A stretch of 27,702 nt of DNA from a virus, in the IMG/VR virus record IMGVR_UViG_3300048050_000113, positions 1 to 27,702 of that record. The stretch is one strand, 5' to 3'. The position numbers and the translations under genes are program-made. The notes beneath the pieces are model-generated. The model ran no database searches. It saw only the letters and a list, made by a program, of their open reading frames with translations, and was not told where the DNA came from. Of the stretch, positions 23,355-27,702 are shown piece by piece. Position 1 is the first letter of the stretch; every line of letters begins with the position of its first letter.

Positions 23355-23533
23355 CGCATGCTCCCATACGCGCCTGTCCTGAAGTCCTGCATGGCCGTTC
23401 CGTCCGTTCTCCTCGATCCAGAGACATACTTTGGTGCCTTCTTGATGCGCTCCTCCATGGCGATGAGCCTGTCCAGGTAGTTTTCCGGGAGGCTTGAAAG
23501 GGAGGCCTGTGCCACCTGTCCATCGCTACGCAA
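23351..23533 (-). CDS. Tiny coupled ORF between terminase and zinc ribbon
   Basis: A 60-residue ORF with a helical SSLPENYLDRLIAMEERIKK segment and a polar, Gly/Arg-rich tail. The TTG at 23533 is chosen because GGAGG lies nine bases upstream, inside the end of the terminase gene. A GTG at 23515 would give 54 residues. The stop overlaps the next start in a GTGA. It fills the only gap in the operon here and the composition is protein-like, so I regard it as real. No function can be assigned. Confidence 0.5.
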   Translation of the reverse strand: MRSDGQVAQASLSSLPENYLDRLIAMEERIKKAPKYVSGSRRTDGTAMQDFRTGAYGSMR

Positions 23534-25088
23534 CAAATTTCGCCTCCCATGCCGACGCAAGCCGTTTCTTGAACATTCCAAAGAGGGAATCAGGCCGATA
23601 CGCCGCTTGCCTGAGCGCGTCGCCCGATGTCCCGCCTGCGAATTCCGTTATGATCTGGACCATCATCGTGAGCGCGTCCACGAGATCGTCATGTTCTCCC
23701 TTGGGGAAGAACTCCATTTGGAGGAGTAAGTCGGTGAGCGATTCGTGGATGAACACCCTGCCAGTGCGGACGACGCCGCCCAGGACGCGGTTGATCTTGT
23801 CTTCTTTGGACATTGATCGCGGTGCGTCGATCTGTTCCAGCTTGAACCGCAACCTCTTACCCGTGATCGTCTCGTACTCGCGTCTCTTGATATCCAGGAG
23901 GTATTGAATCCCCGCTTGCAGTCCCAGCTCGATTCCTACGACCTTTGGGCGGTACTGGACGATGAGCCTGATTAACTCGTCCACCATCTTGTCGGGCTTC
24001 AGGTGGATCTTCTTGGCCTCGACCACGTACAGAAAGCCTTCCGAATTGACCGCCCCGATGATCACGCCCGTATCGTCCGAGTAGCTTTCTGCGGTAGCCG
24101 CAGGGTCCACCGTCATGTAATAGGCATGCTCGCCCGGAGCGAGGACCGCGAAGGTCGGCTGTGGGGGAGGGAAGATTTGATCGTCCCTCGGCACGGGGTT
24201 GTTGTCATACTGACAGGAGTACTCATAGGCACCCTGGCGCTGCTTGATCTTGGCGAGCATCGAGAGGGTGAAGAAACGGTAGATCGGCTTCCCGCCCTCG
24301 ACCGCGCGGCGAATATAGACCCGATCCTTGTACCAGCCTTCCCTCATGACGGTCCCGTAGATGTCCGAGAAGTGATACCGGGTGCCTATCATCAGCTCGA
24401 AGCCTTCCGGGTCCTTGATGGACTGGATATACGAATACCAGTCCCGAACCTTCCTGATCTGCTCAGGCGTCGAGCATGACTGCTCATTGATGATGTCGTC
24501 CATGATGATGACGTCGTAATGGCGTCCTACGATCGTGGCTCCAACACCCCAGGCTTCAACCTGATTTTCCTGGGGAATCCTGCCCCATTCAGCCGAGCGG
24601 AAAACGGTAAGCTCATTGGCGACTGACCGCTTCCAGTTCACGAACCGCTTCCCTGGCTCGGGGATTCGGTCGGGGAACAGGCGCATGAGCATGGACGTGC
24701 AGAATAGTTGCTTGATCTCCCCAAGTTGCGATTCAACGAGGCTCGAAGTGCGGGAGAACAGCCCTATTCGGATATTGGGATTTTGCAGGATGAGCTGGAC
24801 GATCTTCACCTTCGTCCAGGCAGACTTCATATGTCCGCGAGGTATCAGGATAAGCGTGTCGTCGTTCCGCTCCATGATGCCGGAGAGCCATCCGTGCAGC
24901 ACAGGATCGAGGCGTGGACGACCTCCATCCTCGATCTTGTCCATGCCAAGAATCACGGCACCCAGAAAGTACAGGTCGGTGAGAGCCTTCCATTGCAGGT
25001 ACAGCTCCGCCGCTAACTCCTCCTTCCCTGTCTTCTCAAAGAACTCTCGGTACTTCCGCTTCTCAGCGGGAGTTCGAACGTACTCCAT
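23526..25088 (-). CDS. terL: Terminase large subunit
   Basis: A 520-residue DNA-packaging motor that translocates DNA into the procapsid and cuts it. The ATPase part has a deviant Walker A (IPRGHMKSAW, Lys88), a Walker B VIIMDD (Asp197/Asp198) and a GTRYHF coupling motif at 235-240. The nuclease part has Asp328 in MTVDPA, Glu387 in VGIELG and Asp467/468/471 in GEHDDLVDAL, the expected RNase H-like metal ligands. GGAG lies five bases before the ATG. Unusually it is separated from the small subunit by about 2 kb of accessory genes and a 408-base leader, instead of following directly. Confidence 0.93.
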   Translation of the reverse strand: MEYVRTPAEKRKYREFFEKTGKEELAAELYLQWKALTDLYFLGAVILGMDKIEDGGRPRLDPVLHGWLSGIMERNDDTLILIPRGHMKSAWTKVKIVQLILQNPNIRIGLFSRTSSLVESQLGEIKQLFCTSMLMRLFPDRIPEPGKRFVNWKRSVANELTVFRSAEWGRIPQENQVEAWGVGATIVGRHYDVIIMDDIINEQSCSTPEQIRKVRDWYSYIQSIKDPEGFELMIGTRYHFSDIYGTVMREGWYKDRVYIRRAVEGGKPIYRFFTLSMLAKIKQRQGAYEYSCQYDNNPVPRDDQIFPPPQPTFAVLAPGEHAYYMTVDPAATAESYSDDTGVIIGAVNSEGFLYVVEAKKIHLKPDKMVDELIRLIVQYRPKVVGIELGLQAGIQYLLDIKRREYETITGKRLRFKLEQIDAPRSMSKEDKINRVLGGVVRTGRVFIHESLTDLLLQMEFFPKGEHDDLVDALTMMVQIITEFAGGTSGDALRQAAYRPDSLFGMFKKRLASAWEAKFVA

Positions 25089-25496: not shown

Positions 25497-25730
25497 TTAA
25501 ATAATTTTGACTCGGTGAAGTTCATCCCGAGTCCAGGTTGCACCTTCCGATGAAACTGATAGGGTGTCCATTAACGAGAAGGTATCTTCCAACCATTGAT
25601 CTTTTGGGGAAAGAACGGCTTGTTCTACTAGCTTGCGAACCATGTCATTGAAGGATATATTATGCTTTCGGGCATATTCCCGACCAGCTTTGAGAAGATT
25701 TTCATCCATGGACAGCGTGATGTTCTTCAT
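25497..25730 (-). CDS. Orphan ribbon-helix-helix antitoxin (DUF6364-like)
   Basis: A 77-residue protein. MKNITLSMDENLLKAGREYA is the strand-helix start of a ribbon-helix-helix DNA-binding domain, and HNISFNDMVRKLVEQA gives the second helix. The C-terminal part (about 43-77), with a WTRDEL motif, resembles the toxin-binding tail of DUF6364/VapB-type antitoxins, which normally precede a VapC PIN toxin. No toxin gene follows; the next - strand gene is terL after a long leader. The ATG at 25730 is preferred to an upstream start because a -10 palindrome overlaps the longer frame and GGGG lies before this ATG. It probably represses itself and could neutralise a host toxin. Confidence 0.7.
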   Translation of the reverse strand: MKNITLSMDENLLKAGREYARKHNISFNDMVRKLVEQAVLSPKDQWLEDTFSLMDTLSVSSEGATWTRDELHRVKII

Positions 25731-25746
25731 ATAAGACCCCATTAAT

Positions 25747-25775
25747 AGTATAGGTATACTCATCCAAAAACTCAA
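25747..25775 (-). promoter_or_regulatory. Promoter with overlapping palindromic operator for the antitoxin gene
   Basis: On the - strand TTGAGT (25770-25775), a 17-base spacer and TATACT (25747-25752) form a good promoter. The -10 is half of an inverted repeat, AGTATA-CC-TATACT (25747-25760). A palindrome over the -10 is the usual binding site of self-repressing ribbon-helix-helix antitoxins. Transcription would begin about ten bases before the ATG. Confidence 0.55.
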
Positions 25776-25880: not shown

Positions 25881-26162
25881 TCAGGCCCAAATATTATTAC
25901 TATTTTTCTTTTCATGATTTATATTTATTTGACTATTTTCATAATCACTTTTTGTATTTGATGGTACACCACATATAGCTATTAACCCGAATACTCCAAA
26001 CAAGAAACATATCCAAAACCATGCAATTGTTGAATATCCTTTCTTTTTTGCAACCCAACGACCTAATAATGCTGTTGAAAATGTATAAATTAGAAATACT
26101 ATTATAATTATTAAGCCAAAACCTGCTACAATTAAATCGTAAAGCCACAATGTATTATTCAT
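25881..26162 (-). CDS. Small two-helix membrane protein in the accessory island
   Basis: A 93-residue AT-rich gene. Two hydrophobic segments (about 8-33 and 43-65) flank a basic loop (GRWVAKKKGYS), and the C-terminus is polar and Asn-rich. A very good AGGAGGGAGAG precedes the ATG. The second half (WFWICFLFGVFGLIAI) resembles small bacterial membrane proteins of unknown function. If the integron cassette next to it is removed, this gene would follow the terminase small subunit by only 17 bases, so it was probably the original next gene. Position suggests a superinfection-exclusion or accessory membrane role, without direct proof. Confidence 0.6.
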   Translation of the reverse strand: MNNTLWLYDLIVAGFGLIIIIVFLIYTFSTALLGRWVAKKKGYSTIAWFWICFLFGVFGLIAICGVPSNTKSDYENSQININHEKKNSNNIWA

Positions 26163-26228
26163 ATTTCTCTCCCTCCTCTTCAGGAATTCTTATTAGCAAT
26201 TTCTATTCTATAATGCGCATTAGCATCC

Positions 26229-26294
26229 ACCTGACATTCACTTAACCTTCAAATCCGTGCCAAAGGATTTGCAAGGTTGAAGCGGTTGTTAGAT
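26229..26294 (-). other. Integron attC recombination site
   Basis: Read on the - strand, the site starts with the inverse core ATCTAAC (26288-26294), followed by a spacer AACCGC. The first arm is TTCAACCTTGCAAATCC (26265-26281), the loop is TTTGGCAC, and the second arm is GGATTTGAAGGTTAA. A GTGAAT spacer and GTCAGGT (26229-26235) close the site. The arms pair over all 15 bases of the second arm and leave exactly two single extra bases (C and G) in the first arm, matching the extrahelical bases that give attC its strand polarity. The right core differs from GTTRRRY at one base, because in an inserted cassette its last six bases belong to the target DNA. The orientation, with the inverse core next to the gene, is that of a cassette. 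Confidence 0.85.
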
Positions 26295-27124
26295 TTCTCC
26301 TAATTTAATACTATATGTATTTTTTCTTGCATTAATGCTGCTTCATATAAGCTATGATTTTCAGAGTTAGCCAAATTTTGTAAGGTTATATCTTTATAAA
26401 TTCCAAGGATTTTATCTATTATATCAAGATAATTTTCAGATAGATTTTTGTTAAATTTAAATATTATCAAAAGCACCAATTCTGACTCAGTCAAAGAATA
26501 TCTTAAAAGAGTATAATACTTTTCCTTTTCTCCATTTTCATATACATTTGTTTCAATACTTTTAGCCAAAACAACAATATAGTTGAATAACCCAATATAA
26601 TTAAGAATTAATACTTTTTCTCTAATTACTATTGTACTAATTACATCTATATGCCGTTTTTTGTAATCTTCAACAATATTATAAATATCTCTCTTTAATA
26701 CTTGAAATCCATCATTACTATTTTCTTTAAATGTCGAAACAATAGAATATCGTTGAATTAAATTATCATTAAATGACTGTTCAAATCTTTGAAGTGATAT
26801 ATTTTTAATTTGTGTATTAGAATCTTCATTCTGATTTCTAATTGTTATTAAGATTAAAATAATAGACAATAAGCTTAGCAAAGGGCCAACAACACCACCA
26901 TAATACCCTCCAAAATTCCCCCAATCATCTGCATATAATGAATACTTGCCATCAAATGTATTTTTATAAATTACAAATGGTACTACTATTACAATAAGCG
27001 CAATTACTAAAACTAACTTGATTATAATATTAAATTTTTTAATGCAACAAAATTTCCCTTTAATGAATATAAGTATATCTTTAAGTTTATTCATTTTTCT
27101 TCCTTACGCGAAGCGACAATCTAA
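26235..27124 (-). mobile_element. Integron gene cassette inserted in the terminase small-subunit gene
   Basis: The 890-base segment runs from the T after G27125 to G26235 and carries one gene in the orientation gene then attC, five bases apart. Its left end is TTAGAT, completing a GTTAGAT core with the G of the target. In the excised circle this core would be perfectly complementary to the ATCTAAC inverse core, as expected for the two ends of one cassette. Removing it restores the terminase frame for 17 further codons. The GC content is far lower than that of the phage late genes. No IntI gene is seen, so it must have been supplied by the host. Confidence 0.8.
26300..27094 (-). CDS. putAbiC-like membrane protein (putative phage abortive-infection or exclusion protein), cassette gene
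   Basis: A 264-residue, very AT-rich gene. Two membrane helices (about 22-43 and 68-87) flank a short loop with DDWGNFGGYYGGVVGP (56-71), the pattern of the putative phage abortive-infection family PF16872: Trp/Phe-Gly, then Gly-Gly and Pro at the second helix. A FEQSFND motif (104-110) begins a helical cytoplasmic domain to the end, as in that family. Members are thought to block phage infection, but the mechanism is not known. AAGGAAG precedes the ATG. The stop is five bases before an attC site. In this prophage the product would probably act in the lysogen against other phages. Assignment is by motif; a search of PF16872 would decide. Confidence 0.65.
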   Translation of the reverse strand: MNKLKDILIFIKGKFCCIKKFNIIIKLVLVIALIVIVVPFVIYKNTFDGKYSLYADDWGNFGGYYGGVVGPLLSLLSIILILITIRNQNEDSNTQIKNISLQRFEQSFNDNLIQRYSIVSTFKENSNDGFQVLKRDIYNIVEDYKKRHIDVISTIVIREKVLILNYIGLFNYIVVLAKSIETNVYENGEKEKYYTLLRYSLTESELVLLIIFKFNKNLSENYLDIIDKILGIYKDITLQNLANSENHSLYEAALMQEKIHIVLN

Positions 27125-27702
27125 CAATGATTAGAATGCTCTGGATAACTCTCTACGTCAATACTATTTGCTTCCTTGATCTTCCTACCCTTTGCCCTAT
27201 CCCTGGCTTCCTTCATGACCTCTTTCAAGATGATGCGGTGTTCATCACGCTCCTTGTCCGAGGACTTCTTCTGATCGGTGTAGGTGCCATCCATGCGGTT
27301 CAGGAGATCCACTGCTTTGATGATGTCCGAGAAGGTAGGGCCTGACTTCACCACCTCAACAAGTTCACCTTCAGCGTTGAACCGCTCCGTAGTCCTGGAC
27401 ATCTTCTGGGTGATCAGTTCAATGAGGATGGACGACCTGTGTTCCTTGCCCATCCCGCGCTCTTCCAGGATACGTTCTATCTCATTCCTGATGCGGTCCT
27501 GGCGCATGAGCTTGTAGGATTGCTTGTGGGCTGTGTTGTAGGTGACATTCATAGCCGACTCAGCAGAACCCAAAGCCTTGCCGAAGTTCGGGGAAGCGGG
27601 GTCGGTGATCTCGACAACGAAACGCGCTGCACGTTCATCAAAGTTGCCTTTACTGGCTTCCGGTGTCGCTCCCACTATGCTTTCTCCCTTTTCACAATCC
27701 AT
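27121..27702 (-). CDS. terS: Terminase small subunit, 3' end altered by a cassette insertion
   Basis: A 193-residue protein that recognises the packaging start on phage DNA and recruits the large subunit. Residues about 28-85 have the helix-turn-helix pattern of terminase small subunits: FVVEITD, NVTYNTAHKQSYKLMR and IRNEIERILEERGM. A central helical part and a Lys/Arg-rich tail (about 150-185) follow. The last codon (TGT) and the TAG stop straddle the GTTAGAT core of the cassette. Without the cassette the frame would continue for 17 codons starting QVDANAHYRIE and end at TGA (26180-26182), giving 210 residues. The start coincides with the window edge, so an upstream start is not excluded. 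Confidence 0.75.
   Translation of the reverse strand: MDCEKGESIVGATPEASKGNFDERAARFVVEITDPASPNFGKALGSAESAMNVTYNTAHKQSYKLMRQDRIRNEIERILEERGMGKEHRSSILIELITQKMSRTTERFNAEGELVEVVKSGPTFSDIIKAVDLLNRMDGTYTDQKKSSDKERDEHRIILKEVMKEARDRAKGRKIKEANSIDVESYPEHSNHC

Follow-up and report, generated by a model that had tools for sequence, protein, structure and literature searches.

A probable Spirochaetales integron cassette in the variable interval between the terminase genes of a temperate phage

The DNA analysed here, called the window throughout, is one entire viral record of 27,702 nucleotides (IMGVR_UViG_3300048050_000113). Towards its right-hand end the genes are arranged on the minus strand in the order terminase small subunit (TerS), integron gene cassette, an open reading frame of 93 aa, a ribbon-helix-helix type open reading frame and terminase large subunit (TerL). 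TerS (27121-27702, 193 aa) matched the Pfam family Terminase_2 with an E-value of 0.0032, which is below the cut-off, and it is conserved in seven loci from relatives. TerL (23526-25088) was recognised by Terminase_6C (E 3.6e-7), and the ribbon-helix-helix type frame (25497-25775), which belongs to the phage backbone, is 89% identical in the relative L001. The GC content of the insert region is 25-32%, as compared with about 57% in the phage backbone. At the other end of the window, on the plus strand, a tyrosine integrase of phage type, distinct from the integron integrase IntI, is encoded at 1-1386. Beside it, at 1800-2669, lies a second AT-rich island (about 29% GC) with a minus-strand open reading frame of 289 aa and no attC.

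The cassette occupies positions 26235-27124 on the minus strand (890 bp), with the crossover point G^TT (the caret marking the crossover) at each end. Read downwards from 27125, the first base of the start core GTTAGAT, the sequence runs G^TTAGATTGTCGCTTCGCG and continues with one open reading frame of 264 aa (27094-26300), the five bases GAGAA after the stop codon TAG (26300-26302), and an attC site (26294-26229). Behind G^TTAGATTGT the cassette start contains a hairpin, CGCTTCGCG (27107-27115), which resembles the starts of spirochaete cassettes, and against a profile of host cassette starts it ranked 2 of 55,378 window positions (p 3.6e-5). The features of an integron gene cassette are thus present: a single open reading frame pointing at the attC, a start of the form G^TTRRRY and an attC start of the form RYYYAAC. 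In the excised circle R'' and R' would be ATCTAAC and GTTAGAT, complementary throughout, and the fold obtained for its bottom strand is the canonical attC hairpin (-14.5 kcal/mol for the circle attC).

An earlier note, made from the letters alone, had described a complete cassette of 890 bases with the attC five bases after the gene stop and with end cores perfectly complementary in the circle, and all of this was confirmed. The two single extra bases that it assigned to one arm of the attC were also found, while its pairing of 15 bp has to be corrected, the fold containing about 18 pairs. The same note had placed the insertion inside a terminase gene. This was not the case, since the cassette starts at the TerS stop codon, ahead of TerL, and neither terminase gene is interrupted. 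The stop codon TAG of TerS (27121-27123) falls inside the TTAGAT core of the cassette, and the protein ends in SNHC, at the same point as in the relative L003; the TTAG of the core supplies the stop codon and the TerS protein therefore stays intact.

The attC (minus strand, 26229-26294, 66 bp) shows the expected hairpin, composed of R'' (ATCTAAC, 26288-26294), the L''/L' arms and R' (GTCAGGT, 26229-26235), with two extrahelical bases, a single C and a single G, both in the 5' arm. Its bottom-strand fold with the two extrahelical bases is like that of host and class 1 attCs. For the linear form, the bottom-strand value was -10.7 kcal/mol as against a shuffle mean of -5.3, and 14 of 1000 shuffles were equally low. 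A home-made attC scanner, based on the R''/R' cores and paired arms, put this site at the top of the window with a score of 29.3; the maxima were 28.3 in 60 shuffles of the whole window and 27.9 in 600 shuffled strands of the region.

The covariance-model search proposed in the earlier note was carried out with a model (R1) built from 19 attCs of genomes of the host order, Spirochaetales, from which phage sequences were deliberately left out. Seven of the 19 training attCs were long and had their inner loops shortened before model building, and one of them, on contig C13 of genome G288, sits on a contig that IMG/VR lists as viral too. A mixed attC alignment was left unused because the stem registers differ between attC types. 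The model found one attC in the window and matched it strongly (53.9 bits); the E-values, 1.4e-11 over the 303 kb of the window and its relatives and 1.3e-12 for the window alone with filters off, are rough because the calibration was short. The range for host attCs of the same type is 52-76 bits and for other spirochaete types 25-42 bits, and the aadA attC reaches 36 bits. Since the attC of the window falls within the same-type host range and above aadA, it resembles one spirochaete family more closely than it does a generic attC. The attC pattern is present in 21 of the 294 genomes of the host order, and a reversed control pattern gave zero matches. An Rfam scan of the window gave no match. 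An exact 16-mer of the attC had 34 matches in viral contigs, which is about the chance expectation by our own estimate, and in five of these contigs the model identified attCs.

No integron integrase was found above the TIGR02249 cut-off in the window or in its 12 relatives. The only matches were weak and partial to the model, in frames of 450 aa near the record ends, the best reaching 17.6 bits against 265. The locus is therefore a lone cassette in a phage late operon, in a window without IntI, just as the earlier note had it. A complete integron, with IntI next to attI, is absent, and a CALIN would comprise at least two attCs without IntI; strictly, this is a single attC without integrase.

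The product of the cassette gene (26300-27094, 264 aa) is a predicted membrane protein that is distantly AbiC-like, as judged from Pfam, PHROG and its spirochaete homologues. The match to Pfam putAbiC (E 0.025, 15.5 bits) stays under the gathering score of 22, by which the protein is not assigned to the AbiC-like abortive infection proteins, and phrog_8999, a family of unknown function, was matched with an E-value of 9.4e-16. Two spirochaete homologues have the DWGNFG..GP motifs in common with it. The N-terminal DWGNFG motif is presumably frequent in AbiC-like proteins and is taken as a lead only. Relatives of the protein were not found in plasmids, phages or viral contigs, and the AlphaFold model was poor (pLDDT 49). 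A role in defence or superinfection would be a guess.

The host is probably a spirochaete of the order Spirochaetales, since the tRNA next to a related prophage occurs exactly in nine GTDB genomes, all of them labelled spirochaetes. The record of this prophage (G010) starts with the tRNA gene (CAT anticodon), from which a 74-mer was matched. In one of the nine, a Spirochaetales genome, a phage integrase 48% identical to that of the window is located just after the tRNA. IntI exceeded the cut-off in two of the nine genomes and in 67 of the 294 genomes of the order. In G013, one of the nine, intI is followed by an attI-like G^TT site, a first cassette and, where the contig stops, a truncated attC of the window's family. 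Searched against 394 genomes of this order, TerL gave distant matches only and no close prophage, the TerL alignment against genome contigs gave no relative, and no cell holding both this phage and IntI was seen. The attC of the window belongs to the attC family of the chromosomal integrons of Spirochaetales, which supports the proposal of the earlier note that cassettes have a route between integrons and phages.

In Treponema integrons intI is transcribed towards attI (Wu et al. 2013, PMC3607928), and the arrays found in the host order are located downstream of intI in the same arrangement. Such integrons are present in 67 of the 294 genomes of the order to which G013 belongs; the 2013 paper knew Treponema alone.

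The 12 relatives, L001-L012, all keep TerL at 92-99% protein identity, and in the interval before TerL all of them have AT-rich cargo different from that of the window; in the records that also hold TerS, the whole TerS-TerL interval is replaced. The left junction of the window, TCTAATCATT followed by G^TTAGA (27120-27135), has a weakly attI-like inverted core and is identical in L003, where AATCATTG is joined to TTAGATTGTC and a different cassette lies behind. The left half, TCTAATCATT^G (27126-27135), is weakly attI-like; for the 13 bases left of the crossover the likeness gave p 0.0085 against all 17 host attI sites and p 0.0011 against the seven closest of them. At the right junction GTCAGGTGGATGC (26223-26235) ranked 9 of 55,378 for the host cassette-start profile (p 1.6e-4) and is therefore probably what erosion has left of the start of an older cassette; a free alignment of this second start with those of host cassettes did not reach significance. 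The membrane protein frame of 93 aa (25881-26162) may be the older cassette's gene; downstream of it, no attC was found.

The relatives carry other attC-bearing material in the interval. L003 and L002 each have a UDG-like gene with a long spirochaete-type attC behind it (26 bits, E 0.001), and in L003 this is the cassette that begins at the shared left junction. The attC of L003 has no R'' box, and after it a second cassette begins, terminated by the 5' half of an attC (score 46, a value that none of the shuffles reached). L001 shows the end of a different gene together with a decayed attC, 66 bases of which align with that of the window at a score of 66, as against a shuffle maximum of 37; the covariance model did not recognise it (6.3 bits). 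An attC considered in L004 was not significant and was dropped. For a refutation the earlier note had required both the lack of an attC match by covariance model and the lack of an empty site in related phages. The match was strong, as described above; the empty site (27125 joined to 26234) was not found among the relatives spanning the locus.

Cargo genes of opposite orientation were observed between the two terminase genes of relatives at L007:4242-5372, L008:1-638 and L001:287-1716 (NHL-repeat and other apparently exported proteins), which indicates that the site takes ordinary cargo too.

Taken together, it is likely that a genuine cassette of the Spirochaetales pool lies in a temperate spirochaete phage, at a variable cargo site between TerS and TerL, with insertion by a host IntI as the most probable route. 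The source would be the Spirochaetales integron pool and the carrier a temperate phage lacking IntI. A host IntI would have recombined the folded bottom strand of the cassette attC with the G^TT site at the TerS stop codon, the cassette would thereby have been placed in front of the older, now eroded one, and its gene may be read along with the late operon. We infer that IntI performed the insertion in the host cell, that it uses the site repeatedly and that the cassette should still be excisable. Since a related phage has a different cassette at the same left joint, such phages probably pick up cassettes by means of the host enzyme, and they could carry them between cells. Points against this explanation are the R' sequence GTCAGGT, which departs from GTTRRRY, the weakness of the attI likeness, the outcome of the searches for an empty site, for a close prophage and for a cell with both phage and IntI, none of which was seen, the L001 attC that the model did not recognise, and the training attC of G288 on a contig listed as viral.

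It is also possible, with a clearly lower probability, that a host integron or a different phage first took up the cassette, which then came into the present phage through homologous or illegitimate recombination at a hot spot for cargo, without IntI acting here. The interval contains unrelated cargo without attC in L005, L007, L010, L011 and L012 and two antisense genes in L001. Several relatives with attC-free cargo at the same place point to a general cargo site, into which phage-phage recombination could have brought the cassette, and recombination at repeated GTTRRRY motifs was proposed by Qi et al. 2023 (PMC9892861). However, both cassette ends lie exactly at G^TT points and the different cassette of L003 begins at the same base, which speaks against this alternative.

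The earlier note regarded the target as a secondary site, in effect a non-classical attG site without special history that was used in a single event, and this we consider rather improbable. GTCAGGT does agree with the core in six of seven positions, as was claimed, and insertion of cassettes at attG sites in genomes has been reported by Loot et al. 2024, as cited in PMC11023631 and PMC12444791. The notion of a chance site fits poorly with the other cassette at the identical left junction of L003, with the cassette-start-like right half and with the weakly attI-like left half. A chance hairpin next to a phage accessory gene is ruled out by the covariance-model result on the window, since AT-rich DNA does yield many weak scanner matches but here 53.9 bits with a host-trained model coincide with a matching start core and hairpin.

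The attC pattern was also found in 14 other viral records at 16 loci (two records twice; L190-L205, G408-G420). The covariance model confirmed attCs in all 14, and TIGR02249 matched in none. TerL was found in ten distinct records, after the near-identical G414 and G419 had been merged, and in seven of the ten the nearest attC lies at most 3.2 kb from TerL, as compared with 2.3 expected (p 0.002, which is optimistic because the 3.2-kb limit was chosen after the distances had been seen). This is a hint that phages preferentially carry such cassettes near terminase genes. One of these records is contig C13 of the spirochaete genome G288, as judged from equal length and an identical attC position, and G288 has a chromosomal IntI. 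A more far-reaching proposal, which we put forward tentatively and hold to be doubtful, is that some phages keep an attI-like capture site by the terminase genes, load and exchange cassettes via host IntI in trans and shuttle them between cells. If true, phages with a terminase capture site would act as integrons without integrase.

Phages with integrons and with 17 CALINs were described by Qi et al. 2023 (PMC9892861), who also showed recombination of phage attCs with IntI1. The present locus is similar to those CALINs in that attC-bearing cassettes lie in phage genomes without IntI, and the inverted GTTRRRY motifs at one CALIN boundary are counted as a further likeness. The published CALINs have at least two predicted attCs, whereas here one intact attC is accompanied by a probable older cassette start, and here the carriers are probably phages of spirochaetes, among whose relatives a single site linked to the terminase genes holds different cassettes. 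The attC family, the cassette-start hairpin and the attC length (63-68 bp in Treponema) are shared with the chromosomal integrons of Treponema (Wu et al. 2013, PMC3607928), which differ from the present case, a phage with neither IntI nor an intI-linked attI nor a long array. As in the attG insertions of Loot et al. 2024, cited in the two papers named above, the cassette is attached at a site of the G^TT type that is not part of an integron; the difference lies in one fixed place common to two phages, with different cassettes and a weak attI likeness. Cassettes and CALINs in phages are thus already published, and we found no description of spirochaete phages, of a fixed terminase-linked junction with different cassettes or of the terminase association.

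Little is known of how sedentary chromosomal integrons pass their cassettes from cell to cell, and the locus would provide a concrete, testable case of cassette movement between spirochaete integrons and a temperate phage. As a minor observation, the relative phage G003 (L024:6332-8360) carries a C5 cytosine methylase adjoining a DUF4928 gene, perhaps a restriction-modification pair.
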